Part shown: positions 10,901 to 29,405 of the stretch, one piece after another | Numbering within the stretch: position 1 is the first letter of the stretch | Layout of the letters: each line of letters begins with the position of its first letter | From: a virus | DNA: 37,817 nt | IMG/VR virus record: IMGVR_UViG_3300037507_000290 | Location: 1 to 37,817 of that record | Strand: one strand, 5' to 3' | Notes under the pieces: generated by a model | The model's database searches: none | Seen by the model: the letters and a program-made list of their open reading frames with translations, nothing else | Told to the model about the DNA's origin: nothing | Position numbers and translations under genes: made by a program

Positions 10901-13165
10901 GTTATTGAATAGGCTGTTCTTTACAAGAGTCTCTGCGCTATCAGTTGCAAACTGTGAACCTAGTGACATAAAAGCAGCATTGACTGGTTCAAAGATAGAG
11001 TTCTTTGGAATATATGCAGGTCTTGCTAAGGCTGCAAAGGAGAATATCTTGTTACCAAACTCAAATGTTTCTCCACCAATTCGTGTAAAGGTATTGCTTC
11101 GAGGGTCAATAACACCCTTTACTCTGGCAACTTCCCTAACAATCTTGCCCATTGGAATCAATGGTGTGGCGTTAGCCAACTGACGCTGGGTCTGTGGGTT
11201 AACAATTACTCGGTAACCATTAGGGTCCATAGCGTATGAGTCGTTAGCCAAGTCATTATGGTAACGATTTACGGTTGACTTCATTTCATCAACGAATGCT
11301 TTAGCCTGAACGCGGCTGAGACCCATAGTGTTAAGGGTGTCGATAGAAACTTCGTCGCTCATTTTCTCAAAGAATGCTGCTCTTGCGCCATCAGTCTTCT
11401 GCTGCAATGCTTGGTCAATAATGTTACGACGGTATTCTGCTGCAGTTACTGTGGTTCCATCAGGTAGATTAACCTTGTTTGTGCCACGACGGAACAACTT
11501 AATGTCATCTAGCCAAGCATTGATTTCTTCAATAGCATCTGCTGGACGTAGACCTGAGTGGCTGATAATGCCACGAGGTAGTTTGCTGCCTGTAAAGTGA
11601 ATCAAGGCTGTGGCTGCGCCACCTCTACGACCACTACCAATGACGCGCTGGACAACTCCACCGACATTGCTGTAATCGCGGACCTCTGTTGCAGCACCAA
11701 ACTTCTGCTTTGTCTCACGAAGTTTTGCTACAGCGCTTCTGGCAATAGGTATCTCAGTTAAAGGAACTACTGGCTCGATTGGCTTGTACTTAGTACCAAG
11801 CATAAGCGGCTCAGGAAGAAACTGGTTGGTTGAGATATCAAACTGGTCGCGCATAAAGGCATCAAAGATATCTCTGGTCTCAGGTGTCTTGGCGATAGCA
11901 TCATCAAATGCTGCGCTCCAGCGCTCTTTAGCCTGACCATTGTATGAGCGATACTGACCAGTCTTCATAAAATCTGCAGTAATTTCGTCGGCTGCATTAG
12001 AGGCATACCACAAATCGTCTGACCTACGAGCATTGATAAGACGCTCAATAGCAGGGGCGTATCCTTTATCTGCAAGCAACAAATCCTTAACGAAGTTAGG
12101 GTCCTCTGTTTCCTTGACTAAGTTAGCCAAACGAGGGTTATTTGTATAAGGCTTAAGAATCTTATTGATTAAAACGATATCTTTGCTCTTTGCCATATTG
12201 ACGATATCGGTACCAAAAACAGTCTGTGTGTTACCAGAGATTTGGTCATCTGCTAACTTCTCTAGTTTAGCGATAGCATCAACATCATAAACATTAATCT
12301 TGTTACTTAAGCCAGCACTACGAGCGCCTGCCTTGAGTAGGCTAACAGAAGCATTGGCTGCGCCAACGATTGCTGCGTTACCAACAAGGAAATCTGTAAA
12401 TCCAGTTAACCATCTGCCCGTTGTGTTGTCAACGAAGTTAGCCTCAACATCCGCATCATCCCATAGGTTGACACGGTCAATATCAATACCACCATCTTCA
12501 AGGATGGAATCAGATATACCTGTGATGTGGAATGGATTAAGCAAAGACTTGGTTAGGGCTACGCCCAATGAAACATCTTTGCTGCGGTCATATGCAGTCT
12601 GTATATCGCTTAACTGAATACCTTTACCATAAGCATCATCTTTGAATAAAGGGCTATCTGGGTCAGTAAGAAGCGCTGCTGTGGAGATAGGGCGCTTGAT
12701 AAGCGGACTAAATACTTTTTCTTCTGCAATAATTGCAGCCTGTAACAATGGGTCAACAGGGATTGCAGCCTCTGCTGCAGTTTGAGCAGCATACTGAACC
12801 ATACCGTCTTTGAGTAGTTCATTGAGGTCGTTACCAGTTTCGCGGGCTACTTGTTCAGCGCCACGTGTAACACCAATCTGTGCTCCAGCCTTGAGTGCTG
12901 TACCGCCAACACCTGCTCCAGGTTGAATACCAAGAGCCTGAAAGGGTGCAGTTACGCCTCTACCTAGTGCGCCCGCTGCTTTGCCTAGTGGCTTCAGTAC
13001 GGGCTGTGCTACATCGATTACTTCTTTAGCAGCGCCAAGAACCTTCTTAGTATTTGATTCAAGATTTCTTTTGGCAATGCTGAAAGGTGACAAAGTATCA
13101 ACGACTTTTTGTGCGGCAGTTTTATCGCCGCCTAGAGCCTTCTTAAAATTATCCCAAAAAGCCAT
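7913..13165 (-). CDS. Giant virion protein (1750 aa), putative internal/ejection protein
   Basis: The largest gene, 14 percent of the window. The N-terminus (MAFWDNFKKALGGDKTAAQK) leads into an Ala/Gly-rich amphipathic region (KAAGALGRGVTAPFQALG). The rest is helical and charged with long coiled-coil-like stretches (LRAAERLLANLEKKARDRAD). A moderately hydrophobic patch (INFLANFAGPAYSIPLFVGG) lies around residue 1300 and could insert into a membrane. No Walker, lysozyme or peptidase motif was recognised. The absence of tail-tube and assembly chaperone genes argues against a tape measure, and the context favours a giant podoviral ejection protein that forms the channel or carries DNA through the envelope (inference). 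Confidence 0.6.
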   Translation of the reverse strand: MAFWDNFKKALGGDKTAAQKVVDTLSPFSIAKRNLESNTKKVLGAAKEVIDVAQPVLKPLGKAAGALGRGVTAPFQALGIQPGAGVGGTALKAGAQIGVTRGAEQVARETGNDLNELLKDGMVQYAAQTAAEAAIPVDPLLQAAIIAEEKVFSPLIKRPISTAALLTDPDSPLFKDDAYGKGIQLSDIQTAYDRSKDVSLGVALTKSLLNPFHITGISDSILEDGGIDIDRVNLWDDADVEANFVDNTTGRWLTGFTDFLVGNAAIVGAANASVSLLKAGARSAGLSNKINVYDVDAIAKLEKLADDQISGNTQTVFGTDIVNMAKSKDIVLINKILKPYTNNPRLANLVKETEDPNFVKDLLLADKGYAPAIERLINARRSDDLWYASNAADEITADFMKTGQYRSYNGQAKERWSAAFDDAIAKTPETRDIFDAFMRDQFDISTNQFLPEPLMLGTKYKPIEPVVPLTEIPIARSAVAKLRETKQKFGAATEVRDYSNVGGVVQRVIGSGRRGGAATALIHFTGSKLPRGIISHSGLRPADAIEEINAWLDDIKLFRRGTNKVNLPDGTTVTAAEYRRNIIDQALQQKTDGARAAFFEKMSDEVSIDTLNTMGLSRVQAKAFVDEMKSTVNRYHNDLANDSYAMDPNGYRVIVNPQTQRQLANATPLIPMGKIVREVARVKGVIDPRSNTFTRIGGETFEFGNKIFSFAALARPAYIPKNSIFEPVNAAFMSLGSQFATDSAETLVKNSLFNNQQRFFGAINKANIKSAARKKALKEEYRQYTQQIEKAVDIADYAVSEWVEFFVNTGKRSPVTRADNLDVVKENLRAAERLLANLEKKARDRADEYNTVREEVPSLYGLVRRVQYLKSVNDPKYASDISAAELAITKAAGDINTLAPDLNKLNLNVKKAYDDIDKILVEMGPSRKALADEWSVADNRRIRRKGRQEEQGYVLSNGQTINIPRLESENHLGTSYKAEISNRHTREIELLGDKTFASRVDMLGRKTANRITPVYDPLYFDELAYVVNNYMRGDVLIDQILAGRTRNEIIATWGLKRGGKTYAEDFGRDANEIIDMIDDQIAYVNRYLPTLESKAAALSGEVRSNQLAQLLGDKLERLTPINPLDNQYSTSIAQQKELMDAFDKATSAVWAKMGAPENAIRWAWGTVELRNRTIDKIESLAAQGYEITTGTVNSVRRAAAIEMVQEAEKTFYSVRRQNRAIFAARTVLSFPAASVSGFYRYTRFTAKAPQRMAGFLNSYYGTYNSFGVDKYGNPVDDVLDAEHLILPGTKEIGLNDGKGITVGTRAINFLANFAGPAYSIPLFVGGIVSFKPEASTLIREGIDKTFGKIPGYTYEDLFPYGVNPDLGDAAIRTFTPAWARNALMWATGDEGDREWLNTYASEWNYQMALYEMGIGKEPTEKLVKKNASKKFREKFLWQFASPIGSPAVIDMRPDSIFSTYYRAAYDKYKSYDLSDTIASNAALEELNSHAAVLGATKPFDGERLYFGAKLKPKAAYTVATVEGYSRIWEDNRGLANKLGEFDRNLIGLMTADLIGSASDPNISRILNKPGTKLPDGTPLNLPLKSIKDVENDIEIGRVWDAYTNYKDQLNKMAKEKGYASYASVEVLQEALQDYAKELSDYSPAWGRTYKRGIREDSSYKYAWGLTQILKDEKFMSKHGNSQFWVHAKAMMKYRDDYAKLLKDAPDGYKTVVKDAWTEYVESVIDLLDPNLADIFDRYFLKDQLKEVGNE

Positions 13166-13372
13166 TTAGAACTCCAAATACTCTGGGTTAAAGTTAGAAG
13201 GTTCTCCGCCTTTAACGTCTTGTCCTGTAATTTCTCTAATAAAATTATCTCTGTCAGTTGGTGATTGCCAAGGAACCATCGACAACATAAGAGCAATGTC
13301 AAAGTTTTCGTAGCCTAGTGAATTACCAAACTTGTCTAGGTGGTCGAATAAAGTATTCTCCATCCATTGCAT
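13166..13372 (-). CDS. Small late protein (68 aa), unknown
   Basis: 68 residues (MQWMENTLFDHLDKFGNSLG) with an acidic, partly hydrophobic composition and DIALMLSMVPWQSPTDRDNF in the middle. The TAA stop abuts the ATG of the giant virion protein and the start overlaps the upstream stop region. A second ATG three codons in (MENTLF) is possible. No family recognised; it could be a chaperone or minor component of the large virion proteins it precedes. Confidence 0.65.
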   Translation of the reverse strand: MQWMENTLFDHLDKFGNSLGYENFDIALMLSMVPWQSPTDRDNFIREITGQDVKGGEPSNFNPEYLEF

Positions 13373-13872
13373 TACATTAACTCCCTCATAAGAGCATTAA
13401 CCATTCTCTTGTATGAGTCTGGGGCTCCAGGAATACGTGCTGCATTAAGTAAGTCAGGCAGATAACGCTTGACAAGTTCTACGTTCTCAATCTGACGGCT
13501 GCTTGGGTTAAGACTTGGTGGGATAACTTCACTGCCACGTCCTGAACCGAAATCTACGCCATCGGATATTGGGAGGAACTCTGTTGGCTCTGAATCAAGT
13601 GGTTCAATTTGGCTAAGCAACTGAGACATATCTGGTCTTGGCATCGCTGCTGCTGGATTGGCAGCGTTGGCTGTTGTAGATACGTTGCCACCTTCGCTAA
13701 TCTGTTGTGCCATAGCCGTATTTTCTCCTTGTGCAAATCCAGATGGACGAAGTTGCGTAGCCTTTGCTACCTTCTGCGCCACAAATCTTCCTGACTGACC
13801 ATTACCACCATTAGGAGACACAGTCATTGGGTCGTTCTGTGATGCAGTAGGGCGAAATCCTCCGCTAACCAT
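13372..13872 (-). CDS. Late-cluster hypothetical protein (166 aa)
   Basis: 166 residues. The first 115 or so are low-complexity, rich in Ser, Gly, Asn, Pro and Gln and probably disordered (NPAAAMPRPDMSQLLSQIEP). The last 50 form a helical segment (NVELVKRYLPDLLNAAR, RMVNALMRELM). Such a disordered arm with a short helical tail fits a capsid-lumen or assembly protein. The start shares the TAATG junction with the upstream gene. No family is recognised. Confidence 0.65.
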   Translation of the reverse strand: MVSGGFRPTASQNDPMTVSPNGGNGQSGRFVAQKVAKATQLRPSGFAQGENTAMAQQISEGGNVSTTANAANPAAAMPRPDMSQLLSQIEPLDSEPTEFLPISDGVDFGSGRGSEVIPPSLNPSSRQIENVELVKRYLPDLLNAARIPGAPDSYKRMVNALMRELM

Positions 13873-14099
13873 TACTTCTCCTCTGGTGTATATGAATATT
13901 CTTCAGCGCTAAGTAACATACCTTTGGCTAACCAAGGGTTCATATTGTCACTTACGTCTGTCATTAGATAACGAGTGCCTTCAAAGTCGGACCACTCGCT
14001 AACAAGAACCCATCCTGTACAGATTTGGCTCTCTGAATCTTCTAGTTCTTCAGCAAGAATCCTCATTGCCTTTTCTATGGCATCGTTAAACTTACTCAT
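13872..14099 (-). CDS. Small late protein (75 aa), unknown
   Basis: 75 residues, acidic, with an N-terminal helix (FNDAIEKAMRILAEELEDSE) and a strand-rich middle (GWVLVSEWSDFEGTRYLMTD). The ATG overlaps the stop of the Ntn-hydrolase gene as ATGA, so the two proteins are likely made in fixed ratio. It may partner with the hydrolase, but this is only position. No family recognised. Confidence 0.65.
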   Translation of the reverse strand: MSKFNDAIEKAMRILAEELEDSESQICTGWVLVSEWSDFEGTRYLMTDVSDNMNPWLAKGMLLSAEEYSYTPEEK

Positions 14100-14632
14100 T
14101 TGTGCTGAATCTCCTGATAAAAAGGAGGAGCAGAGTAAGCACTTACCTTAGATGCTATCTCCATCGCATCAAGTGGGTCAGCACCTGCATACAATGCGCC
14201 CAATGCGAAAGGACCGCCGCTACCTATAGCGTACATATTGTCTTCGCTCTTCATAACCGACAGGTCTTCGTCGATATCAAAAATTTCTCCACCGACTGAA
14301 ATCAGGAACTGGAATCTCATTCCGTCTTTTTTGTCTTCATCAAAGTTATAACCATTATCAATCAAGCATTTGCGTAATGATGGCATTACCTTGGTAATCA
14401 TAAAGCGGTAGATATCTTTCTTATCTTTCGCTGTAAACTGTGGTGGTACCCAGATATTCTGTGCGATATCACACGGACCAACTTCTCCAGCGCCAGCGAT
14501 AAGTACCGCACCGCGTTGAGCAATCTTCTTCATTACCTTGTGAGCGTATATACGACCTGAATCATCGGTTACGCGGCTATCAGCAACAAGAATGCTGTGG
14601 TCATCATATTCAATTCCAATAATCGTTGTCAC
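14096..14632 (-). CDS. Proteasome-beta/HslV-like Ntn-hydrolase
   Basis: 178 residues. The start is GTG (14630-14632) behind AGGAGG, giving (M)TTIIGIEYDDHSILVADSR. Removal of Met would expose Thr1, the nucleophile of proteasomal and HslV proteases. Asp17 and Arg19 (ADSR), a Lys pair at 34-35 equivalent to Lys33, AGAGEVG (Gly47 region) and IGSGGPFALGAL (Ser129 loop) are all present, so the catalytic set looks intact. No ATPase partner gene is in the window. Located right after the portal, where a prohead maturation protease often sits. Alternatives are degradation of host proteins or mimicry of the actinobacterial proteasome. Fold assignment is confident; role is inference. Confidence 0.85.
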   Translation of the reverse strand: MTTIIGIEYDDHSILVADSRVTDDSGRIYAHKVMKKIAQRGAVLIAGAGEVGPCDIAQNIWVPPQFTAKDKKDIYRFMITKVMPSLRKCLIDNGYNFDEDKKDGMRFQFLISVGGEIFDIDEDLSVMKSEDNMYAIGSGGPFALGALYAGADPLDAMEIASKVSAYSAPPFYQEIQHK

Positions 14633-14647
14633 GTGTCCCCTCCTTGA

Positions 14648-16435
14648 TTATCGTCGTCGAATAGTTCTTACGCTTGCGTTCGCTTCTCCTCCGCCTGAAA
14701 GGCTGGATAAAAGGCTAAGAATGTCTGGTGCTCCTGCTGCTGGTGGTACTTCTGGTCCACCTTCCATAGGAAGAGCGCCTTCTGCTGGTGCACCTAAGGG
14801 AGCAGGGGACGGTTGCTCAACCATTTCAGGCATAGCCCCAGCAGAAGGAACCTGCTCTGCAGGTGCGAATGATTCTTCAATCGCATCTTCAAGTGCTACA
14901 CCCTTCTGGCGAGCCTTAATGACTGCAGCAATTTTGCGAACAACATCAGAGGCATCTGCCCCTTGTGTTGCCATTGCAGGAATCGCTTGAGTATATGCAG
15001 TCAAAGAGCCGAGCAAGGCTTGGCGCATATTCTCAACTTCAATCTTTTCTAATTCTTGTGTGACGTTTACTGTGAATGGAAGTTCACGCATTGCTAGGTC
15101 TTTGGAGATAAGTCCTCCACCAAGAGCCTGTAGCATAAAGATAAGACCCTGTGCTGGGTTAAGACCTGCAAGCATTCCATAACGGACATCAGCACTATAG
15201 TCGCCCTTGATATCTTTGCGTGGGCTGTAGGTGATTTCGTATGGTGAACCAGAGTCAACGCCACGAATGGTCTTGACATCTGGGAAAATCTTCTCGTCTA
15301 CTTCAAAACAAATCTGAATTACATCACGTAGTGCGCTAGCAAAGATTGCTTGAGCGGACTTAACTTGGGTATCAAAGGCACCCATAAGAGCCTGCACACC
15401 TTGTCCTGTGACAACTGATGCGTCAATGTTTCCTGTACGTCCCTCAGGATAACGTGCGCCCACACGCATTTCTTGATTGAGCAACGTTTGCTCGGTGAAT
15501 GCGCCTTGTGGCAAGGTGAGTTCTACGCGACGTACGCCTGCTGGATTGTTTGTGCGGATAACCGCATCTCCACCAAGCATAAGTTCTTGTACGTCGGAAG
15601 GAAGAACGATTGGAGCCTGTACAGATTTCTCTGCTGCTTCCATTGCCAAAAGAGCAAAGCGGTTGCGTAGCAACTGAATACCAATGATGTCATCGAACTG
15701 ACCACGCATTTCACCATCGACAGATGGTTTACGTGCACAAACAATCATCATCTTGCCTAGTGGATTCTTGGCTGTTGAAAGAACCAAGTTGCCCTTTGTA
15801 GGTAGATATACGATTGATTGGTCTTTGTCGTAGTAGCGAATCATCTCAACCTGTTGAGTTAAGTCTTGCTCATAGCGAAGTTTGCCGAGCAACTCATACT
15901 CAAATTCGGGAAATAGTGAGACAAGTTCACCAAGTGTCATTGTGTATCGTTTTGCAAAAGCAACGCAGCGTCCGTAGCGGTCAAACTCAGGGTAAGCACC
16001 TATTGGGTTTTCTAGGCGGATGCGTGGCAGTTTTGCTTCCTCGTCCAGTTCAATGATGAATGGGAGGAAACCGTATGTGAGGTACCAGTCGGCACCTTGG
16101 TACATCTGTACAGATAAATCAGAGTGAGCAAAATAATTAGAGGCAATGCGAGTACGTGTATCAGCAAACTTACGAGCCCTATCAGAAACCGAATTCGCCG
16201 CGTTACAGTTAACCGCTGGTAGTGGTGCCATAACCTCTGAGAGGTCTCGCGCCACAATATCCACAAAATTTGCAACGACATTGGCATCTACTCCGTCTGG
16301 AAAGAAATCAGGATAGACGGTAGAAATCTGACCCTTACGTACAGCAAGGACGTCAAGATTGCGAGAGTCCCTGTCTGCAGCGCGATAGCGCAGAGATTCA
16401 ACTCTTGCTGCTACCTGTTCGATTGAGAGTGCCAT
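14648..16435 (-). CDS. Portal protein
   Basis: 595 residues. It follows the terminase gene by six bases and has the helical, charged pattern of portals: an N-terminal LRYRAADRDSRNLDVLAVRK, a stem/clip region with ENPIGAYPEFDRYGRCVAFA, and GQGVQALMGAFDTQVKSAQA in the long-helix region. The C-terminal 60 or so residues (from about 530) are Pro/Ala/Gly-rich and probably disordered, facing the capsid lumen. The portal forms the dodecameric ring through which DNA is packaged. Assignment rests on size, order (terminase, portal, protease, scaffold, capsid) and overall pattern. Confidence 0.82.
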   Translation of the reverse strand: MALSIEQVAARVESLRYRAADRDSRNLDVLAVRKGQISTVYPDFFPDGVDANVVANFVDIVARDLSEVMAPLPAVNCNAANSVSDRARKFADTRTRIASNYFAHSDLSVQMYQGADWYLTYGFLPFIIELDEEAKLPRIRLENPIGAYPEFDRYGRCVAFAKRYTMTLGELVSLFPEFEYELLGKLRYEQDLTQQVEMIRYYDKDQSIVYLPTKGNLVLSTAKNPLGKMMIVCARKPSVDGEMRGQFDDIIGIQLLRNRFALLAMEAAEKSVQAPIVLPSDVQELMLGGDAVIRTNNPAGVRRVELTLPQGAFTEQTLLNQEMRVGARYPEGRTGNIDASVVTGQGVQALMGAFDTQVKSAQAIFASALRDVIQICFEVDEKIFPDVKTIRGVDSGSPYEITYSPRKDIKGDYSADVRYGMLAGLNPAQGLIFMLQALGGGLISKDLAMRELPFTVNVTQELEKIEVENMRQALLGSLTAYTQAIPAMATQGADASDVVRKIAAVIKARQKGVALEDAIEESFAPAEQVPSAGAMPEMVEQPSPAPLGAPAEGALPMEGGPEVPPAAGAPDILSLLSSLSGGGEANASVRTIRRR

Positions 16436-16441
16436 AGTTTC

Positions 16442-18307
16442 CTATCCGTATGTTTCTTGCCATTGCTCTGCAAAGGCTTCATCAAGATTAACCGTTGTTC
16501 TGCGATATGTCTGAGCCCTTGTAGCCCAGCGATTTTGCACCCAACGTTGTTGCTGACTTCCTTGTTGCATCATCTCGCGTATGCGGATAATGGCAAACCA
16601 TAAAGCCATCACGCAGTCAGTAGCGTTTCTGGTTTCAGGCTTCCACGTAATCAACTGCTGTACTAAAGCCTTAAGACCTTCGCTACCTTCATTGCTTGGT
16701 AGTTCTATTAAATTGTTATCCTGGAATCTTCCATCTCTAAGACTGCCAAAAAGACTTGCCATAGAAGCCACACCGAAACTAGTATCCCACTTATTCTTAC
16801 CAGTGAAGTGAGAGTTGAGTTGGCAGCCGTACATTGACAGCCAGTTTCGCAAGTCGTCATCGAGTGCATAGGCTTTCTGGTGAGCATTGATTTCAATACG
16901 TAATTCTTGTGGTTTATATCTTTGTACCCAATCTTCAATCAGGGCACGAATCTTCATCGGCGTCGGGTCTGTCATATTGACGCAGTCAAGGATGTAAATC
17001 ATCCCGTCAGCCTTGTTGTATGTAGCCACAACGGCTGCTGTGTTTCCTGTCATTGCGGGGTCTAGCCCTATAACGGTATAGCCCTCGACGGATTGTGGAT
17101 GACCTGCAGCACCTGATTTAAGCGGTCCGCGCTTTCGCATACCGTTGACACATCCTGCAACTGCTGCTGGCGCAAAGATAGCGTCTTCGACGACATCTTC
17201 TTGCTGATAGACCATAGCCCATACAGAGGGAGCAACTTCGCTTCTTCGGGTGAAGAGAGCGCCTCCATCCCACTTTGGGTATAGTCCTTGTTCATCTGCT
17301 TCATCATTCTCGCCTTCAGGGCGGTCTGTCTTTGCCCACAACGTTTTCCAGTTGGCAGGCTTCTCATCAAACTCGAGGACCGCTGGCATCGCGCAATAAG
17401 TGAAAGGCGATTTCCCACCAGTCCAGTTAGAGCCGTCCCGTATCTGTTTGTAAAGGTCGACAGGAGCGACACGGGTTCCCACTATTAGTAGTTTTCCGTG
17501 TCGTCCCAAACGCGTGATAACTTCCTTTTGAAGCCATTCAATTTGCTTCTCCCACTCGTGGGCATTTGAGTTCATCACGACATCGTCGAGGATAATCAGG
17601 TCGGCACGAGCACCGTAAATCTGTGAACCAAATCCTAGGGCTTGCACCGTAGGGTCTTTTTCTCCAGAGTCTCGACCTGTTCCAAGATAAATCATATCGG
17701 CGGACCACGTAGGCGAGTCCGCCTTATAGCCACCATTAGGACCGAAAGCGGTCTGGAGTTTAATCCAGGACGGATGGCTTAATCGGGTCTTGATGGCTGA
17801 AAGGAATTTGCGAGCCATACCCTGAGTCTTGGAGACCAGGATAATTCTTATGTTGGGGTTAGTGGCAATTCGGTAGGTGACGTAGTTGATGGTCAGTACC
17901 GTGCTCTTGGCGTGTTCAGGGGGAACGTTAATCAGAACGCGGTTATGCGCCCCTTGTTCAAAAGTCATACTTGGGTGGAGCCATCTAGGCTCACGACCCT
18001 CAATCAGGTCAATCCAGTCAAGTTGGTGGGGGAAAAGTTTGGTATCTAGGAACTCGGTTGAGAAGTCCTCAAAGGAAATCTCTTTCAGGTTCCTCAGGTC
18101 GCTTCGGACCCCTTTGCCCTCTAGCCTAGCCTTATCGGCTTTATCCTTAAAGTCGGCATCAGCCATAGTCCATTGGCGGAAGGTAACCTCATTGCGGTTA
18201 ACCGACTCCATAGCGGCTTTGATAGTTGACCCTTGGCTCAGTTGGTGCAGCACTCGCACCATAGCCTCGCCCTTTGGGATATCGACTTTACCTGGTTTTC
18301 GTCCCAC
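16442..18307 (-). CDS. terL: Terminase large subunit with N-terminal HTH-like extension
   Basis: 621 residues. Start GTG 18305-18307. Residues 12-65 (VLHQLSQGSTIKAAMESVNR, TFRQWTMADADFKDKADKAR) look like the helix-turn-helix of small terminase subunits. The ATPase follows: Walker A variant VPPEHAKST (128-136), Walker B ADLIILDDVV (235-244), coupling motif LLIVGTRV (273-280). The nuclease domain has GLDPAMTGN with Asp416, IEIN with Glu472 and TDCVMALWF with Asp564, as in RNase H-fold terminases. The motor translocates DNA into the prohead and cuts at the end. No separate small-subunit gene is recognisable nearby, so DNA recognition may be fused here. Confidence 0.93.
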   Translation of the reverse strand: MGRKPGKVDIPKGEAMVRVLHQLSQGSTIKAAMESVNRNEVTFRQWTMADADFKDKADKARLEGKGVRSDLRNLKEISFEDFSTEFLDTKLFPHQLDWIDLIEGREPRWLHPSMTFEQGAHNRVLINVPPEHAKSTVLTINYVTYRIATNPNIRIILVSKTQGMARKFLSAIKTRLSHPSWIKLQTAFGPNGGYKADSPTWSADMIYLGTGRDSGEKDPTVQALGFGSQIYGARADLIILDDVVMNSNAHEWEKQIEWLQKEVITRLGRHGKLLIVGTRVAPVDLYKQIRDGSNWTGGKSPFTYCAMPAVLEFDEKPANWKTLWAKTDRPEGENDEADEQGLYPKWDGGALFTRRSEVAPSVWAMVYQQEDVVEDAIFAPAAVAGCVNGMRKRGPLKSGAAGHPQSVEGYTVIGLDPAMTGNTAAVVATYNKADGMIYILDCVNMTDPTPMKIRALIEDWVQRYKPQELRIEINAHQKAYALDDDLRNWLSMYGCQLNSHFTGKNKWDTSFGVASMASLFGSLRDGRFQDNNLIELPSNEGSEGLKALVQQLITWKPETRNATDCVMALWFAIIRIREMMQQGSQQQRWVQNRWATRAQTYRRTTVNLDEAFAEQWQETYG

Positions 18308-18550: not shown

Positions 18551-18969
18551 ATAAAAGTGCAGGTCAGAAGTATATAGCCCCAATATAACAGAAAATTTTA
18601 GGGGTAGTATATATACTATAATACGACCGATTTATACTAGTCTGGGGTCAAAACTCTTCCGAGCCTATCCTATCGGGACCCTTACGGGTTCCCCGACTAT
18701 CACTCTTCTTCTGTCTTAGGTCTTATAGAAATGTCGACATATATATAAAGCGACTTTCATAGATATATGAATGAAAACTAGCAAGAGATGAGAGTTTAGG
18801 GATGGGATGACTCTCCCCCTCGGGGGTATCTCGTAGCCCCCTCGGTTATAGATTGAATCCGATTTGATTGAACTTTCAACTACTTATCTATTGAGAGGGG
18901 GAAGATATAGGGGGAATCTATCGAACATCTGTACGGGTAAGAATGTGACGGACATCACTAGAAATACCC

Positions 18970-18998
18970 TTGACACGTTAGGACTTACGGCGTAAAGT
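18970..18998 (+). promoter_or_regulatory. Candidate early promoter, TTGACA-17-TAAAGT
   Basis: A perfect -35 TTGACA (18970-18975), a 17-base spacer and -10 TAAAGT (18993-18998, four of six matches). Transcription would start near 19005, right before a 5' hairpin (19007-19028), the start-associated sequence and the ATG at 19042. It fits recognition by the host housekeeping sigma factor as an immediate-early promoter for the whole plus-strand unit. Confidence 0.6.
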
Positions 18999-19006: not shown

Positions 19007-19028
19007 TCGGCAGGAGATACCTAGCCGA
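19007..19028 (+). promoter_or_regulatory. 5'-terminal leader hairpin of the early unit
   Basis: TCGGC (19007-19011) pairs with GCCGA (19024-19028) and, inside, AGG (19012-19014) with CCT (19020-19022), leaving an AGATA loop and one bulged A. With the predicted transcription start near 19005 the mRNA would begin with this hairpin. The start-associated sequence follows at once (19029-19038). The same hairpin-then-GACAGGAG order recurs in the next four gaps. Confidence 0.55.
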
Positions 19029-19041: not shown

Positions 19042-19263
19042 ATGAGCAAGAAAATCGGTTTAGGAGATTCTGTTAGTTCAATGGAATCCTCGAACTGTTG
19101 CCAGTGCGGGAAGAAAGTCGGAAAGAATCCATTTTGGATTCACCTTTCAAACTCGGGGCGCATTTTGAATCCAAATGAAGAAAATCCATCTTCGCAAGGA
19201 TTCTTTCCAATCGGCTCGGAATGCGCTAAGGGTTTCGAATCCGAAATGCTAGTGAGAAATTAG
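19042..19263 (+). CDS. Small Cys-containing (zinc-ribbon-like) early protein
   Basis: 73 residues, first gene of the early unit. It has NCCQCGKKVGKN with a CxxC-type knuckle (Cys19/20 and Cys22) and a later IGSECAKGF Cys, so metal binding is possible but the usual second CxxC pair is missing. ATG 19042 follows GACAGGAGAA by three bases. Early position suggests a host-takeover role. The last base of its TAG stop is part of stem II of the ribozyme that follows. No family recognised. Confidence 0.7.
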   Translation: MSKKIGLGDSVSSMESSNCCQCGKKVGKNPFWIHLSNSGRILNPNEENPSSQGFFPIGSECAKGFESEMLVRN

Positions 19264-19316
19264 GCGAAACCCCGCAAGGGGTCACGGGTGGAATGGTCTC
19301 CCCCGTCTGATGAGCC
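19263..19316 (+). ncRNA. Hammerhead ribozyme 1 (type II, complete core)
   Basis: Circularly permuted type-II hammerhead. Order: GGC then GAAA (19266-19269); stem III CCCC-GCAA-GGGG (19270-19281) capped by a GNRA loop; UC (19282-19283); stem I ACGGG...CCCGT (19284-19288 with 19302-19306) plus three more pairs after a bulge; CTGATGA (19307-19313); then GCC (19314-19316) closing stem II with GGC (19263-19265). All invariant nucleotides (C3 U4 G5 A6 U7 G8 A9, G12 A13 A14, A15.1-U16.1, C17) are present. Predicted self-cleavage lies between 19283 and 19284. The downstream product starts with stem I, then GACAGGAGAA and the metalloprotease ATG. Stem II is short (3 bp) and begins inside the upstream stop codon. 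Confidence 0.9.
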
Positions 19317-19345
19317 AGACCAAAAGAAAGACAGGAGAAGAAAAA

Positions 19346-19966
19346 ATGAAGACGCAAATCGAATCCAAAACCGAGAACCTATCGGGAATCGTGACCGCCT
19401 TAGAATCGGCTCACGCCCTTATTCAAGAGAAGACAGGCGCACCCCGCGCAACTATCCTAGTCACCCGCAAAACAGGGCGCACGATGGGGCACTTTACTCA
19501 CGCAAAACTATGGAAAGCAGGCGAGGAATCTTTCCACGAGATTATGATATCCGCGAACTATTTCGAGCGCGGGGCGCGGGCTGTCCTTGGCACTCTTCTT
19601 CACGAGGTGGCGCATTCCCTAGACCTAGCAAATGGAATCCAAGGCGTGACGGGCGATGGGTACCATAATAAAAAGTTCAAGCAGACCGCCGAGGCTCTCG
19701 GGCTCACAATCACACAAGCCAAGGGTATCGGGTGGAGCGTGACCGACGTATCCGATGAATGCGCCGATCGATGGGCGGATGCCCTAGCCTTGATTGAGAA
19801 TGCCCTCGCACTTATGGCAGATTCCGAGCAGGCAGGCAAGACACGAGGCAGAAATAAGAATCTATTGAAAGCGGTCTGTGAATGTTCAAGTATCCGCGCA
19901 AGTGCTACAGTTATCGAACAAGGCGTGACCTGTAACAAGTGCGGGCAGGTCTTCCGCAAGGCGTAA
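19346..19966 (+). CDS. SprT-like zinc metalloprotease
   Basis: 206 residues. I start it at ATG 19346, six bases after GACAGGAGAA; an in-frame ATG at 19310 lies inside the hammerhead core (ctgATGag) and is not a plausible start. The zincin motif HEVAH (86-90) with a third ligand in GYHNKKF (His107) gives an active-site zinc, and a C-terminal zinc ribbon has Cys178, Cys180, Cys196 and Cys199 (CEC...CNKCG). This is the SprT/Spartan layout. Spartan-type enzymes cut DNA-bound proteins, and phage homologues of unknown target are common in actinophage early regions. Possible roles are removal of host DNA-bound proteins or protection of replicating phage DNA (inference). Confidence 0.85.
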   Translation: MKTQIESKTENLSGIVTALESAHALIQEKTGAPRATILVTRKTGRTMGHFTHAKLWKAGEESFHEIMISANYFERGARAVLGTLLHEVAHSLDLANGIQGVTGDGYHNKKFKQTAEALGLTITQAKGIGWSVTDVSDECADRWADALALIENALALMADSEQAGKTRGRNKNLLKAVCECSSIRASATVIEQGVTCNKCGQVFRKA

Positions 19967-19970
19967 CACA

Positions 19971-20036
19971 GGGCGAAACCTAGCCCCGAGAAATCGGGGC
20001 GATGGTCTCGGGGTAAATGCCCCGACTGATGAGCCT
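19971..20036 (+). ncRNA. Hammerhead ribozyme 2 (type II, complete core)
   Basis: Same permuted order as ribozyme 1 with different stems, so it is not a simple recent duplicate. GGGC (19971-19974), GAAA (19975-19978), stem III with CC/GG at its base and CCCCGA-GAAA-TCGGGG above an internal loop (19979-20005), UC (20006-20007), a perfect 6-bp stem I TCGGGG-TAAATG-CCCCGA (20008-20025), CTGATGA (20026-20032), then GCCT (20033-20036) pairing with GGGC. Every invariant core base is present. Predicted cleavage is between 20007 and 20008. Downstream lies CTTACGACAGGAGAA and the ATG at 20076; the upstream stop ends at 19966. Confidence 0.92.
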
Positions 20037-20075
20037 AAGAAACTTTCAGACTTACGACAGGAGAAAAGCACTACT

Positions 20076-20525
20076 ATGGAAACAGCCGAGAGAATCAACC
20101 CCTACAAGTGGGCACAAGATAATCTAAGCGCACCCCGCGCCCGCGCATTCTGGCAACAATACCGCGAACTAGAGAACGCGAAACTGTCCGACGAGTGGCG
20201 GGCAGAATGGAAAAAGTGCGACGAGATTAGAATCGCATTCGTTAGGGCAAACCTTGAGCAGACTAACGCAATCGAGCGAGCAACAGAACAAGCCGTGAGC
20301 GCGATTGAAGAAACTATCAGAAGCCTTCAGCAACAGGTCAGAGACCTCAGACAGACCGCCCGCGAGCGTGTCGAGAAGATTCAATCGGAGGTCTATAATC
20401 TCGAGGAGTATAAGGCTCAAGATGAAAAGGTGCGGGAGATGTGGCGACGAGATGACGCAGAGTTTCAGCCTAAGGCTCGAGCCTTGATGGATAAGTATCT
20501 AAAAGCGCAACAAGCGAGCAACTAG
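20076..20525 (+). CDS. Coiled-coil early protein (149 aa)
   Basis: 149 residues, highly charged. Residues about 60-125 form an almost continuous helix with heptad spacing (EQAVSAIEETIRSLQQQVRD, RQTARERVEKIQSEVYNLEE). The N-terminus has NPYKWAQDNLSAPRARAFWQ. Probably an oligomeric coiled coil; no catalytic or DNA-binding motif seen. Flanked by ribozyme 2 upstream and structured element A downstream, so its mRNA is probably made as a separate unit. Function unknown. Confidence 0.75.
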   Translation: METAERINPYKWAQDNLSAPRARAFWQQYRELENAKLSDEWRAEWKKCDEIRIAFVRANLEQTNAIERATEQAVSAIEETIRSLQQQVRDLRQTARERVEKIQSEVYNLEEYKAQDEKVREMWRRDDAEFQPKARALMDKYLKAQQASN

Positions 20526-20532
20526 CACGACA

Positions 20533-20605
20533 GCCCCCGCACCTACAGAGGGCGCAGGTTCAAGACCTAGCGGGGGCGCGACAGGATAGGAAAGCCCTAT
20601 CTTGT
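20533..20605 (+). ncRNA. Unrecognised structured RNA, copy A (possible ribozyme)
   Basis: Lies in the gap between two early genes where the preceding gaps carry hammerheads. An outer stem of 8 bp pairs GCCCCCGC (20533-20540) with GCGGGGGC (20570-20577). Inside are two hairpins: CCT-ACAG-AGG (20542-20551) and AGGT/ACCT (20556-20559 with 20565-20568), with a GCGC linker and a single A before the outer stem closes. A 10-bp hairpin ACAGGATAGG/CCTATCTTGT (20581-20605) follows, then AAGACAGGAGAA. Copy B (20956-21024) keeps all stems with different base pairs and shares ACAGAGGGCG exactly. No U-tract follows, so it is not a terminator. I do not match it to a known ribozyme class. Confidence 0.7.
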
Positions 20606-20944: not shown

Positions 20945-20955
20945 GGTAACTCACA

Positions 20956-21024
20956 GCCCCGCACTCTTGACAGAGGGCGAATGGAGCGAGACCATAGCGG
21001 GGCACGAGGCGGAAAGTATCCGCC
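20956..21024 (+). ncRNA. Unrecognised structured RNA, copy B (possible ribozyme)
   Basis: Same design as copy A: outer stem GCCCCGC (20956-20962) with GCGGGGC (20997-21003); hairpin CTCT-TGAC-AGAG (20964-20975); GGCGA linker; hairpin ATGG/CCAT (20981-20984 with 20992-20995); one A; then a following hairpin GGCGGA-AAGTA-TCCGCC (21008-21024) and AAGTAAGACAGGAGAA. Compared with copy A, both inner hairpins and the trailing hairpin changed on both sides and kept pairing, while ACAGAGGGCG (20970-20979) is unchanged. This is what a conserved functional RNA looks like. A conserved GGGCG might also pair with CGCCC/GCCCT in the trailing hairpin, giving a possible switch. Confidence 0.7.
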
Positions 21025-24057: not shown

Positions 24058-24227
24058 TGCCGACGTATGAATACAGATGCGAAGAGTGCCTAGCATTTCA
24101 AGAGACGCAGATTCATTTTGAAGTTGGACCTGAGTGCCCAGTATGTTATCGAACTATGAAGAGAGTCTGGTCTGCCCCTGGCATCCAGTTCAAAGGCACA
24201 GGATTTTACAAGACAGACAACCGCTAG
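24057..24227 (+). CDS. FmdB-type zinc-ribbon protein
   Basis: 56 residues starting at ATG 24057 (MPTYEYRCEECLAFQ); an in-frame ATG at 24009 would lie within the previous gene and lacks a ribosome-binding site. Cys pairs CEEC and CPVC (PECPVCYRTMKRVWSAPGI) and the ending FKGTGFYKTDNR match the FmdB/putative regulatory zinc-ribbon family. It is the last plus-strand gene. Its TAG shares the palindrome CTAG (24224-24227) with the stop of the converging minus-strand gene, leaving no room for a terminator. Confidence 0.85.
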   Translation: MPTYEYRCEECLAFQETQIHFEVGPECPVCYRTMKRVWSAPGIQFKGTGFYKTDNR

Positions 24228-24868
24228 TCTTCTAGTTCGTCTTCTTTATCTGGTAAATCATAATCAGGAAATGGCTTGAAGCCACCTAATTTGCGAATCA
24301 TTCTATTGATTGCCCGCTTGTGGCGCATACGAGCAGCATCCTCAGAGCCTAAACTTAAGAGGTTAGCAATCTCCTTGAAGTCCATTGACTGAGCGTGACG
24401 CATAAACAAAATCTTTCTATCTTCCTTACCAATCTTCCAATACACATAGTCAATCTCAATCATCAACGCCATTAGATTGCCACCTTCAGCAGGGGCAGAG
24501 GGGCGACCCACTCTTCCAATGTTCAACTTGTGAGACGTAGTGAACTCACCTCTTAAGACAGGAGGAAGCACAGCCTCAACTACTTCAGCAGTGTAGTAAT
24601 ACAGGTCAGCCGTGTCATAGCCAACAGACTTAGCCTTCCACTTCTGGCAGTAATCTAAAGCCTGGTTGCGTAGGCTACGATAGATAAGATTCTTCGCATC
24701 CTTGGGACCCTTGGCTTCCCACTCGTCTAACTTATTTGGATGTTCAGCGAACCACTGGTAGAGCACCTGTCTTATGTCATCAATCTCGACCATATCAAAC
24801 TTGCGAGAATACTCAAGAGCGACAGCATCCACTACATATTGCCAAGGTTCAATGCGTTCCCAGTTCAT
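24224..24868 (-). CDS. Sigma-70-like DNA-binding factor
   Basis: 214 residues. The N-terminal part (YSRKFDMVEIDDIRQVLYQW, NLIYRSLRNQALDYCQKWKA) resembles sigma region 2, and the C-terminal part (KEDRKILFMRHAQSMDFKEI, ANLLSLGSEDAARMRHKRAI) is a region-4-type helix-turn-helix. It is the last gene of the middle unit, well placed to switch transcription to late promoters, for example the weak -35 site upstream of the terminase. Sequence similarity is by eye only; an anti-sigma or simple HTH regulator is possible. Confidence 0.72.
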   Translation of the reverse strand: MNWERIEPWQYVVDAVALEYSRKFDMVEIDDIRQVLYQWFAEHPNKLDEWEAKGPKDAKNLIYRSLRNQALDYCQKWKAKSVGYDTADLYYYTAEVVEAVLPPVLRGEFTTSHKLNIGRVGRPSAPAEGGNLMALMIEIDYVYWKIGKEDRKILFMRHAQSMDFKEIANLLSLGSEDAARMRHKRAINRMIRKLGGFKPFPDYDLPDKEDELED

Positions 24869-25263
24869 AGTAACTTAGTTCCCAACTTGACGTTGAGGAG
24901 TCCCACTTTCTTTATTCTGTTGTTGTTATTGGCAAACTCAGTAGTTGTTGGCAACCACTTATCGTGCCACCTCATATCAATCTCCGACTTAAGTATAGAT
25001 TCAAGGTCAAAAAAATATACCCCTTGCGGGGTGTAATTTACATAGCAGGGTGAGTATGACAACTTACCTGCTTCGGTAACAAGAAAGTCGAACTTATACT
25101 TCTCGATAAGCAGGTCGTCGTAATGAGTCTTTCGTGACTTAAGTTCTATGAACAACTTGTATTCATCTGACTGGCAATCAAAGCCGTCGAACTCAGACTC
25201 GGAACGAGTCAGGTCAGGATAAAACTTTTCCTTCAGCCAATCAAAGAGTTCGGGTTCTCTCAC
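24865..25263 (-). CDS. PD-(D/E)XK nuclease-like protein
   Basis: 132 residues. Asp29 (FDGFDCQ) and IELKSRK with Glu40 and Lys42 form a D...ExK signature of restriction-endonuclease-like nucleases. Before it lies DWLKEKFYPDLTRSESEFDG, a typical first helix. It could act in recombination, host DNA degradation or packaging. It overlaps the sigma-like gene by four bases (ATGA) and is preceded by the Nmad1-like gene. Fold is an inference from a short motif. Confidence 0.62.
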   Translation of the reverse strand: MREPELFDWLKEKFYPDLTRSESEFDGFDCQSDEYKLFIELKSRKTHYDDLLIEKYKFDFLVTEAGKLSYSPCYVNYTPQGVYFFDLESILKSEIDMRWHDKWLPTTTEFANNNNRIKKVGLLNVKLGTKLL

Positions 25264-25637
25264 TTCTCACTATCCCATTGCTGTCTTAAGACTAAGAGAC
25301 CTATGATTGCGTAGTTTGCCATATCCTTAAAGGAGTCTTCAAGCGATTCGTACTGTGGGTTGGACACACCTCTGTCGACGAGGTTATTAATCCTTGCCAA
25401 CTTATCGTGCATACGAACTCGCAGTCCATTGATAGGACCACCTGGTGATTCAGATATATTCTTCGGACCGTAATCAATGTGCTTCTTAAGTAGTAATGCT
25501 TGGAGTTCATCGAACGTTTGTTCTACATTCTGGACGAAAGGAGCGGAATTGACAGAGTGACTGTGAGCATTCCGCTCTCTGATTTTGTCTGCGTAATATT
25601 GTAACCCATCCCTGTTAGGTGACTTATAATCTGCCAT
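25260..25637 (-). CDS. Nucleotide-modification-associated domain 1 (DUF1599)-like
   Basis: 125 residues. The helical core LLLKKHIDYGPKNISESPGG, MHDKLARINNLVDRG and ESLEDSFKDMANYAIIGLLV matches the pattern I know from DUF1599/Nmad1, an all-helical MazG/dUTPase-like fold often found with phage nucleotide metabolism. Acidic residues in the ESLEDSFKDMANY helix would hold metal ions for nucleotide hydrolysis. It may adjust dNTP pools or be linked to base modification; no modifying enzyme is recognised in the window. Confidence 0.75.
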   Translation of the reverse strand: MADYKSPNRDGLQYYADKIRERNAHSHSVNSAPFVQNVEQTFDELQALLLKKHIDYGPKNISESPGGPINGLRVRMHDKLARINNLVDRGVSNPQYESLEDSFKDMANYAIIGLLVLRQQWDSEK

Positions 25638-25643
25638 ACTTCC

Positions 25644-26009
25644 TCACGCTCCGCTTTCGTCAGTGTCATTAGGTTTGCTTTCCTCCAATAGTTTCTTAAG
25701 ACTCGACTCGAACTTCAACATCTCGGAACCTACCACAACTTCCTCAATGAGTTCGTCTAGTACTTCACTACCAGATTCAGCAGCATAAAGTGTAACATAT
25801 GTGGATTGAGTTATTTGTCTGATTTGTTCTGGTTCTTCGGCGTGTTCGTAAATAAATCTCAACAGACTTCCGACCAGTAACTTGACCCCATTGGGCAAGA
25901 CTATTGCTGGGTCGAACTCGTCATCATCTTCTAGGTGGTGGTCTACCATCTCAAAGGCATTGTCAAAGTGAATGCCACAGCCGTCGCAATAAAGTTCGTG
26001 GTCATCCAT
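25644..26009 (-). CDS. C2H2 zinc-finger-like acidic protein (121 aa)
   Basis: 121 residues. The N-terminus CDGCGIHFDNAFEMVDHHLE fits a C2H2 finger (two Cys, then two His). The rest is acidic and helical (DELIEEVVVGSEMLKFESSL). In actinophages similar small finger proteins occur near primase genes. Its ATG overlaps the stop of the TOPRIM gene (TAATG), so it may be a replisome accessory (inference). Confidence 0.65.
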   Translation of the reverse strand: MDDHELYCDGCGIHFDNAFEMVDHHLEDDDEFDPAIVLPNGVKLLVGSLLRFIYEHAEEPEQIRQITQSTYVTLYAAESGSEVLDELIEEVVVGSEMLKFESSLKKLLEESKPNDTDESGA

Positions 26010-26623
26010 TATTCAATCTTCGCTCTAATTGCTTCCGCCCCGTGGCTAATATAGAATGAGTTAACGTCTTCTCCGTCGGGGAACCCGACGACAGTAACAG
26101 GGAGTTCTCTTGCAAGTGAAGAGGCAAACTCTTTTCCTGGCTGGTCCCCGTCGGCAAAGACAAAGACTCTTTCGAAATCGGCAAGGAGTCTCGTGTAATG
26201 TTTCTTCCAACTGTTAGCCCCTGGAACACCAACACAAGGAATACCAACACAGGCAGACATAGTAAGAGTATCCAATTCACCCTCACATACACCAATGTAA
26301 TCGCCAGCCCGCTCAATATCGAGAACATTATACATCTTAGTATCAGCCCCAGTGAGTCCCATATACTTAGGCTCCACCGCAGGATTGAGCGAACGGAAAC
26401 GTAAATCGACAACGCCAGACTTAGTAACATACGGTATAGCCAACCTTCCTTGGTACTGCTCGTGTCCTACTTCAGGCTCTGCGACTACGCCTAATCGCGC
26501 CAGCCGTGCTATCTCCATTGGGATACCTCTGCTTTTTAGGTAGTCCTCTGCCAGATAAATGCTTGCCGCGTACTTCTCCGCCGCCTTGCCCAACAATTCT
26601 TTCTGCGATGCGCTTTGCTTCAT
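26009..26623 (-). CDS. Primase TOPRIM subunit (DnaG-like)
   Basis: 204 residues. The N-terminal YLAEDYLKSRGIPMEIARLA is typical of the domain joining zinc finger and TOPRIM. The TOPRIM has VCEGELDTL (Glu114) and VFADGDQPGKEFASSL (Asp158, Asp160), the three acidic residues that bind metal. It lacks the zinc finger, which is encoded in another frame by the upstream gene; the two overlap by 152 bases. Start ATG 26623 has CAAGACAGGAG upstream within the first gene, a start-associated sequence. The two products together would make one primase that synthesises RNA primers for the helicase at 27389-28171. Confidence 0.87.
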   Translation of the reverse strand: MKQSASQKELLGKAAEKYAASIYLAEDYLKSRGIPMEIARLARLGVVAEPEVGHEQYQGRLAIPYVTKSGVVDLRFRSLNPAVEPKYMGLTGADTKMYNVLDIERAGDYIGVCEGELDTLTMSACVGIPCVGVPGANSWKKHYTRLLADFERVFVFADGDQPGKEFASSLARELPVTVVGFPDGEDVNSFYISHGAEAIRAKIE

Positions 26624-26837
26624 TGATATTCACGTGCTCCTGTCTTGAGATTATTTGTAAACTATTACCTTGGACTCCGCAAGCGAAGCATATAAAGATA
26701 TTAAGGTCGAGGTTGGCACTACCACTTTGGTGCGTGTCGTCGTGGAATGGACACTTGATATTAGTCTGCCCGTGATTGCGTCGAACGTCCGCTCCGTAGT
26801 GGACGAGGACGTCTCGGATACTTGGTAAATCACTCAC
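26472..26837 (-). CDS. Primase CHC2 zinc-finger subunit
   Basis: 121 residues. CPFHDDTHQSGSANLDL then FICFACGVQGN gives zinc ligands Cys29, His32, Cys50 and Cys53, the CHC2 finger of DnaG primases. The last 50 residues (EVRGKHLSGRGLPKKQRYPN) are basic and are encoded in the 152-base overlap with the TOPRIM gene. Both frames look protein-like there, so it is dual-coding, not a simple frameshift error. The finger recognises template DNA; catalysis needs the TOPRIM partner. Confidence 0.82.
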   Translation of the reverse strand: MSDLPSIRDVLVHYGADVRRNHGQTNIKCPFHDDTHQSGSANLDLNIFICFACGVQGNSLQIISRQEHVNINEAKRIAERIVGQGGGEVRGKHLSGRGLPKKQRYPNGDSTAGAIRRSRRA

Positions 26838-27192
26838 TGTCCCCTACTCTCTCCTGTAACCATTGGTCTAAATCTTGTACAACCCAAGCCCTATCTATGC
26901 CAGCGTTGCGACGCTTAACTATAACGAAGGCAGGCGGTTCTGTCTTAAGACCGCGAGCCTTCGCATAGTTCTTTGCTTCTACCTGAGCCTCGTCCCAGAA
27001 GGCAGGTAAGTCAATCTTCTTTCGGTTCTTAAGTTCTAAGATGTATGTCTTGCCAGCAACGACAGCGACAAGGTCGCCTTCATCTTTGGCTCCAGTCTTG
27101 GTGAGTCGTTCGCATACAGCACCCATAGCCCTAAACCATTTCATTACATCGGTCTCGAACTGTGCGCCCTTGCGCCCATTAGGGTTAGCCAT
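26830..27192 (-). CDS. Hjc-like PD-(D/E)XK nuclease (Holliday junction resolvase type)
   Basis: 120 residues. KGAQFETDVMKWFRAMGAVC (Glu13), GAKDEGDLVAV (Asp40) and YILELKNRKK (Glu53, Lys55) give the E...D...ExK order of archaeal-type resolvases and related phage nucleases. It would cleave branched DNA, resolving recombination or replication intermediates before packaging. Overlaps the zinc-finger primase gene by eight bases. RecB-like or restriction-like activity is an alternative. Confidence 0.75.
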   Translation of the reverse strand: MANPNGRKGAQFETDVMKWFRAMGAVCERLTKTGAKDEGDLVAVVAGKTYILELKNRKKIDLPAFWDEAQVEAKNYAKARGLKTEPPAFVIVKRRNAGIDRAWVVQDLDQWLQERVGDSE

Positions 27193-27380
27193 TACGAAGC
27201 ACTCTTATCCTTCATCAGGATTCTGATTGCCCAGTCCAGTCCATCGTGCACACCTTGTGTGTACTCATCTGTGATAGGAACCTTAGCATCTTCAATCTTC
27301 TGTATGAACTTACTGACTTGCTTAGCAACTTCAGCGTAAGCAATCTCTTTAGCGTGAATCTCTAGGTAATCGTCGTCCAT
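27192..27380 (-). CDS. Small hypothetical protein (62 aa)
   Basis: 62 residues, helical and acidic (DDDYLEIHAKEIAYAEVAKQ, HDGLDWAIRILMKDKSAS). No motif. Lies between helicase and resolvase genes with TAATG coupling to the latter, so a replisome accessory role is possible. Confidence 0.68.
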   Translation of the reverse strand: MDDDYLEIHAKEIAYAEVAKQVSKFIQKIEDAKVPITDEYTQGVHDGLDWAIRILMKDKSAS

Positions 27381-27388
27381 TGTAACTC

Positions 27389-28171
27389 CTATGCGTTCTC
27401 GGGGATGTCTTCTATGTACATATACTCAGGGTTGAACGCTAACCACGCGTTGAGATTCGCGTTAGCATCCGCTCTACCATACCTGTTCTTGACTGGCGCA
27501 ACTGCCATAGCAGTTCCGACGACTCCGAGAGTACAGATAAGCGCAGGGAGTTGAGCCACCTTTCCTTGGAGTGCCGACCTTGGTTGGCAAGGTTTGCCTT
27601 CCACAGCCTCCGATGTATGGTGTAGTACAACAATCGCAGCATTAGTCGCTCGAGCAAGATACTTTAACTCCTTCATAATCGCTCGCATTGATGCGAACTC
27701 TTCGCCACCATCAGTGGCTACATCCATTAGGTTATCTACAAAGATAGCCACAGGCGGGCATCCCCATAGTTCTTCAAAGGCTTGAACCTCTTCATCAATA
27801 TCAACAAGGCTAGGGCTTGACTCAAATGACCAGACAATGTGACTGCCCTTGGCAAGGGTAGCCTTAGTCCAACCCAAATCATTCTGTAATAGATACTCAA
27901 CATCACTCTGATTCTTACCGCTAATCATTGACGCAAGGCGCATAGCCATTGTGTGTGCGTTGGTATCTGCTGAGATATACAGCGTAGGAACTTTCATCTT
28001 CAGTGCTAATGCCAAGGCTAGTGTTGACTTACCTACACCTGGAGTTCCTGCCATCATAGAGACTTCTGCTCTACGAAAGATAATCTTATTTGTTTCAAAT
28101 GCTTTGAACACAGCGGGCAATGGTTCCCCACCGATGTCGGTTCTACCGACTGACCTTACTAAAGTTTTCAT
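27389..28171 (-). CDS. RecA/DnaB-superfamily ATPase, probable replicative helicase
   Basis: 260 residues. Walker A AGTPGVGKST (41-50), Walker B VAIFVDN (141-147), and a VVLHHTSE motif (181-188) that carries the sensor position in DnaB/RepA/AAA_25-type ATPases, then KNRYGRAD (Arg finger-like). It lacks the DnaB N-terminal domain, so it is the core type (like RepA or AAA_25) and probably acts as a hexamer. With the primase pair it forms the phage replication module; DNA polymerase must come from the host. ATG 28171 lies behind TTAAGACAGGAG and a hairpin (28194-28226). Confidence 0.82.
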   Translation of the reverse strand: MKTLVRSVGRTDIGGEPLPAVFKAFETNKIIFRRAEVSMMAGTPGVGKSTLALALALKMKVPTLYISADTNAHTMAMRLASMISGKNQSDVEYLLQNDLGWTKATLAKGSHIVWSFESSPSLVDIDEEVQAFEELWGCPPVAIFVDNLMDVATDGGEEFASMRAIMKELKYLARATNAAIVVLHHTSEAVEGKPCQPRSALQGKVAQLPALICTLGVVGTAMAVAPVKNRYGRADANANLNAWLAFNPEYMYIEDIPENA

Positions 28172-28245
28172 TATGCTCCTGTCTTAAGTTGAAACCACCC
28201 ACTACCTTCCCCGAATAGTAGGTGGTCTCAGTTGTCCCCGATAAG
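28172..28245 (-). promoter_or_regulatory. Hairpin and start-associated sequence before the ATPase gene
   Basis: In this 74-base gap the minus-strand RNA forms ACCACC/GGTGGT (28221-28226 with 28194-28199) around a 21-base loop, with possible extra TAC/GTA pairs inside. CTTAAGACAGGAG follows, just before the ATG of the ATPase gene. The arrangement hairpin-then-GACAGGAG repeats the pattern of the early unit on the opposite strand. No terminator or promoter is evident. Confidence 0.5.
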
Positions 28246-29400: not shown

Positions 29401-29405
29401 TGCTT

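Follow-up and report, generated by a model that had tools for sequence, protein, structure and literature searches.

Positions 19970-20037 of a 37,817-nucleotide viral contig (IMG/VR record IMGVR_UViG_3300037507_000290; the whole of this stretch was analysed and is called the window) almost certainly encode a type II hammerhead ribozyme, judging from sequence, fold and comparison. It is the second of two hammerheads in consecutive gaps of one operon, and we think it probable that it cleaves itself within the operon mRNA and yields single-gene pieces. Hammerheads in phages and the idea that they dice transcripts are already known; as far as the literature searched shows, the stem III sub-form, the contrast with promoter-led genes and an 11-fold array are added here.

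Operon layout

The hammerhead operon is the sole sizeable plus-strand block of the window; the flanking gene blocks (599-18307 and 24224-37669) both lie on the minus strand, with the terminase at 16442-18307. Gene starts were assigned by simple rules, and no tRNA was found in the window. The features of the operon region are as follows.

18970-18998, plus strand: predicted sigma70-like early promoter (TTGACA 18970-18975, 17-nt spacer, TAAAGT 18993-18998), from sequence and relatives
19008-19027, plus strand: predicted leader hairpin CGGCAGG..CCUAGCCG, near the predicted primary 5' end and just before the first ribosome-binding site
19042-19263, plus strand: first operon gene, 73 aa, function unknown
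19262-19324, plus strand: first hammerhead, type II with a pseudoknot between loop I and the 3' tail; predicted cut 19283/19284
19346-19966, plus strand: SprT-like metallopeptidase gene, 206 aa (Pfam PF10263, E 1e-5)
19970-20037, plus strand: second hammerhead, type II, from core, fold, covariation in relatives and covariance model
20056-20065, plus strand: ribosome-binding sequence GACAGGAGAA, from sequence
20076-20525, plus strand: gene 3' of the second hammerhead, 149 aa, function unknown (only sub-cutoff, coiled-coil-like Pfam matches)
20527-20582, plus strand: three-way-junction RNA, first copy, in the gap after the 149-aa gene
20949-21008, plus strand: three-way-junction RNA, second copy

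The promoter block is also present in relatives, and the operon is presumed to be early from its promoter and layout only. Upstream of the promoter (18920-18960) lie a CRP-like site, TGTGACNNNNNTCAC, and a LexA-box-like palindrome, TCGAACATCTGTTCGA, which is intact in relatives and altered in the window. Both sites also occur 5' of the SprT-like gene in two related loci (L135 and L138), and presumably fit an actinobacterial host. At the DNA level, the phage collection held two weak partial matches to the window only, in unannotated records.

The second hammerhead

The RNA reads AGGGC GAAA CC-UA-GCCCCGA GAAA UCGGGGC-GAU-GGUC up to the predicted cut between C20007 and U20008, and UCGGGG UAAAUG CCCCGA CUGAUGA GCCU beyond it. 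Its parts, all on the plus strand, are:

19971-19974 with 20033-20036: stem II, open
19975-19978 (GAAA), 20005-20007 (GUC) and 20026-20032 (CUGAUGA): core, from sequence
19978-20006: stem III, consisting of A15.1-U16.1 and two C-G pairs, an internal loop and a distal 7-bp stem
19981-19982 facing 20001-20003: stem III internal loop UA/GAU, from the fold
19990-19993: GAAA loop capping stem III
20008-20025: stem I hairpin UCGGGG-UAAAUG-CCCCGA, 6 bp (20008-20013 with 20020-20025)

The minimum free energy fold is a three-way junction of -34.4 kcal/mol (z -4.45), which none of 200 shuffles equalled. In this fold stems I and III are closed by loops and stem II is open, which is the type II permutation. 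The features that define the class are present: the CUGANGA...GAAA core with an NUH cut site, which relatives retain, and three covarying helices around the core. A sequence-only reading had proposed a second, divergent type II hammerhead here, with a 6-bp stem I, a GNRA-capped stem III and a full core. The ribozyme itself is strongly supported by core, fold, covariance model and covariation in relatives, and these structural details, the coordinates and the cut site all hold. That reading overlooked two features, namely the 2x3 internal loop of stem III (context CCUAG/CGAUGG) and the absent loop I pseudoknot. In the first hammerhead, loop UGGUCU pairs with tail AGACCA; loop I of the second (UAAAUG) has no complement in the 3' tail.

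A chance origin was rejected on the evidence of shuffled sequences, of simulated windows and of a covariance model built independently. The window has two matches to the core pattern GCGAAAC..GTC..CTGATGAGC, 100 shuffles gave none, and a looser hammerhead descriptor run on both strands found exactly the same two copies, against 1 match per 100 simulated windows. The covariance search that the sequence-only reading had proposed as a check was made with a model from unrelated phages (61 sub-form sequences, the window and its relatives left out). The second hammerhead scores 74.1 bits (E 1.5e-20, a rough value from a short calibration), followed by the first at 23.9 bits, with the best background at 10.7. 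The 61 sequences are 97.7% paired and their covariation score exceeds all 500 shuffles; they had been selected on pairing of stem I and distal stem III, and stem II pairing was not a criterion. Rfam Hammerhead_II (RF02276, gathering threshold 37 bits) matches the first hammerhead at 42.5 bits and gave no match at 19970-20037 even to E 5; for relatives, with the sequence of the window left out, the scores are 28 and 24.6. A weak Rfam match to a type III hammerhead at 20000-20048 (21.2 bits, E 0.69) was rejected, as it requires a downstream GAAAC and has a poor stem III.

Covariation and promoter contrast among relatives

A search with the SprT-like protein returned 29 loci, all but two at 71-100% identity; they include several fragments and a few near-identical copies, and because of shared ancestry the counts below are not independent events. 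Most of these loci carry hammerheads both before and after the SprT-like gene. Stems I and II of the second type are paired in all 17 distinct sequences, of which 16 come from the gap that follows SprT and one from a different gap, and the pairs show two-sided changes. Stem I occurs, among other forms, as UCGGGG/CCCCGA, UUAGGG/CCCUAA, UAGGCG/CGCCUA and UUCCGA/UCGGAA, and two of its pairs surpass all 5000 shuffles. Variation in the CUGANGA core is limited to position 7, which is known to be tolerant; the descriptor permitted variation there only, and a scan of related loci with one free substitution agrees.

Loop I of the second type is near-constant (UAAGUG and similar forms) and its tail has no partner, with 2-3 chance pairs at most, compared with 4-7 bp, changing on both sides, in the first copy and its relatives (13 distinct sequences). 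As loop I-tail pairing is confined to the first type, adjacent gaps carry two hammerhead sub-types.

The gap before the SprT-like gene differs with gene order. Where this gene stands first behind the promoter, the gap contains the promoter and no hammerhead (L130, L135, L138, L139, L140-L142, L143 and L146). Where another gene precedes it, a hammerhead usually lies immediately in front of it. The exceptions are L127, L128 and L136, in which the SprT-like gene closely follows its neighbour and the hammerhead sits before the neighbour or further up, and L133, which has no hammerhead in this gap despite a preceding gene. Among the relatives, with promoters and elements labelled from simple patterns, hammerheads occur in 0 of 12 promoter gaps, and 39 other gaps have one.

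Placement and proposed transcript processing

The second hammerhead starts 3 nt 3' of the SprT-like stop codon and ends 38 nt 5' of the next start. As the sequence-only reading had noted, both hammerheads precede the same start-associated sequence: the ribosome-binding sequence GACAGGAGAA follows each. A start with a ribosome-binding site lies at most 40 nt downstream of 68% of 209 hammerheads, compared with 12% of random points; for the sub-form to which the second hammerhead belongs, the figures are 62%, 10% for random points and 2% on the opposite strand. In a 57-kb viral contig (L068, IMGVR_UViG_3300017605_000570) small genes and hammerheads alternate through 11 consecutive gaps. All 11 ribozymes score above the Rfam threshold; in most cases the preceding stop is 2-6 nt away, and the following start lies at a distance of about 20 nt.

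We propose that the second hammerhead is transcribed within the operon mRNA, folds at once and cleaves the linkage of C20007 to U20008. The piece 5' of the cut, which carries the SprT-like gene, would have the GC-rich hairpin of stem III at its end, terminating in a 2',3'-cyclic phosphate. The piece 3' of the cut would carry a 5'-OH and open with the stem I hairpin, its start codon lying 68 nt further on. Each internal gene so processed would obtain its own hairpin-led mRNA, like the leader of the first gene; a hairpin ahead of GACAGGAGAA after the cut would reproduce the layout of the predicted primary leader, with its hairpin at 19008-19027. Single-gene mRNA processing is in our estimate the likelier main role of the second hammerhead, with somewhat less assurance than the cleavage reading as a whole.

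The dicing reading is well supported computationally by the location on the coding strand, the position before the ribosome-binding site, the covariation, the absence behind the promoter and the 11-fold array. It builds on the observed sequence, structure, covariation, position and recurrence of the second hammerhead; cleavage in the infected cell, an effect on mRNA stability or translation, and early timing are what we infer. Several observations weigh on the other side. Most operon gaps have no hammerhead, so dicing is not required for every gene. The second hammerhead does not have the pseudoknot usual in type II hammerheads, which may bear on its rate of cleavage at cellular magnesium. Its stem I and distal stem III arms are identical (UCGGGG/CCCCGA), which makes misfolding possible, and the cut product folds with the region near its ribosome-binding site partly paired, so that a benefit for translation is not evident.

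The main effect of the cut may instead be to destabilise the gene upstream of it, to lower its expression or to set relative levels, which we regard as unlikely. In favour of this reading, the cut would strip any 3' stabiliser from the upstream gene and leave a 5'-OH downstream, and only some gaps carry a hammerhead. Against it, both new ends would be closed by GC-rich hairpins, the ribozymes are positioned relative to the start that follows them, and no hammerhead precedes the gene next to the promoter. In the 11-ribozyme contig, moreover, each gene of the array has a cut site before it and another after it.

A three-way-junction RNA in the following gaps

The sequence-only reading had called the dicing systematic. 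This is borne out for the two gaps with hammerheads and goes too far for the rest: the next two gaps of the operon carry another RNA element, and the remaining ones neither. The element is a three-way junction that joins a 7-8-bp stem to two hairpins, one of them small and the other with a 7-nt loop that ends in CRAGA. Across 10 sequences its pairing reaches 99.3% and 8 of the 15 pairs show two-sided changes; its covariation exceeds all 500 shuffles and all slid versions. A model of this RNA gave 97 matches in 52 loci of the window's phage group, with up to 4 copies per contig, and no credible match in 96 loci outside the clade with other hammerheads. As a known RNA it was rejected, with no match in Rfam. 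In L140-L143 it replaces the hammerhead behind the SprT-like gene (L140 5608-5666; L143 7005-7061).

The 7-bp stem and 7-nt loop recall the acceptor and T-arm of a tRNA, and we hold this likeness loosely; some copies do not have a U at the first loop position, which speaks against it. A more elaborate scheme, of which we are doubtful, would be an operon with two devices in fixed order: hammerheads in the first internal gaps, then a clade-specific, tRNA-like three-way-junction processing site that would either cleave itself or be a substrate of a host tRNA-processing enzyme, with the stem III module adding docking or control.

The stem III module

The core together with the stem III loop CCUAG/CGANGG was found in 116 stretches of viral contigs that are otherwise very different in sequence, and the sub-form is present in more than 100 such contigs. 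Stem I and distal stem III form in 105 of 112 distinct matches, compared with 0 of 10 for a control in which the loop letters were permuted. In 117 distinct copies, CCUA(G) on one side of the internal loop faces (C)GA(Y)GG on the other. GA is followed by U in 71, C in 35, A in 7 and G in 4, and the inner pair is G-C in 106 of 116, with A-U, C-G and U-A also seen; the other loop letters were fixed by the search pattern, and their constancy reflects this selection. Loop I is most often 5 nt long (UNANG). Only 2 of 22 copies tested, from 20 loci, reach the Rfam threshold. The pattern also occurs in 20 bacterial genomes, including Pseudomonas, Rhizobiales, Bacteroidota, Holdemania and Verrucomicrobiota. 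Three hits of the scan (L153 and L156), in which the stems fail, were set aside as probably chance or degraded.

On the minus strand of L325 (1521-3492), four sub-form hammerheads with A/U-richer stems are spread over about 2 kb, each before a gene. In L183 and its neighbours one gene that follows a sub-form hammerhead has a match to phrog_15752, whose annotation describes a T7 gp0.7-like kinase with host transcription and RNases as targets. The idea that the ribozyme is there for one constant gene behind it was rejected, since 54 downstream proteins belong to many different, mostly unknown families.

Recurrence of this loop in otherwise unrelated contigs, and the failure of the permuted control, raise the question whether the ribozyme is regulated, with cleavage switched when this loop binds a ligand, protein or docking RNA loop. 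The loop letters resemble the 11-nt GNRA tetraloop receptor CCUAAG/UAUGG; they are similar and not identical to it, and no docking GAAA partner was identified. We rate regulation as rather improbable, because the loop is small, no partner was found, and at the same gene position L127, L129, L130 and L138 have a short stem III without it. Such loop-less relatives indicate that the module can be lost and is dispensable.

Relation to known hammerheads and significance

Descriptions of type II hammerheads, of their loop I pseudoknot and of clusters flanking phage genes go back to Perreault et al. 2011 (PMC3088659), who also proposed that clustered hammerheads cut long phage RNAs into operon- or gene-length mRNAs. 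The dicing suggested by the sequence-only reading agrees with the anatomy and the comparison presented here, and had been put forward before. In the same study three tandem arrays cleaved in vitro, one array was active when cloned in E. coli, and an early 5' end mapped in phages HF1/HF2 lay at most 3 nt from the hammerhead cut site (PMC3088659). According to a 2017 review, the contacts in type II are usually made by Watson-Crick pairing, and a crystal structure of this type was still lacking (PMC6155905). In the literature searched, no paper on a type II sub-form with a stem III loop was found.

The second hammerhead shares with RF02276 type II the core, three stems of which I and III are closed and II is open, the intergenic location in phages and the clustered copies. 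It differs by its conserved stem III UA/GAY internal loop and by a short loop I with a U-rich start, without the pseudoknot found in most, not all, members. As in the prophage clusters of C. scindens, A. caulinodans and A. tumefaciens, tandem ribozymes flank genes of one transcript, and as in the HF1/HF2 early transcript, a hammerhead lies shortly before an early gene start (PMC3088659). Unlike in these other phages, up to 11 follow in a row in one contig, and the window's clade has the fixed order promoter, hammerhead gaps, three-way-junction gaps and plain gaps.

In its 6-bp stem I, its loop starting in U, its 4-bp stem II and the absence of a pseudoknot, the second hammerhead is like the type III hammerhead of sTRSV, which has all four features; the window RNA is open at stem II and not at stem III.

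It is highly improbable that ribozyme pairs excise or circularise the intervening RNA as in satellites: hammerheads can ligate and two of them flank the SprT-like gene, but relatives with a single hammerhead exist (L130 and L138), and circular or spliced products sought by Perreault et al. were not found (PMC3088659). Just as improbable is a structured inactive remnant serving merely as hairpin leader or terminator, for which the stability of the stems alone would speak, since the unpaired core letters are invariant while the stems vary freely.

The standard RNA library seems to miss most of a large hammerhead sub-form that is marked by a stem III module of its own. Should cleavage take place in the cell, some phages would make their mRNAs by means of a cutter in every gap, with no protein needed. 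The role of bacterial and phage hammerheads is a long-standing question, and the existence of promoter-first and internal copies of the same gene, together with contigs carrying up to 11 ribozymes in a row, makes it directly testable.
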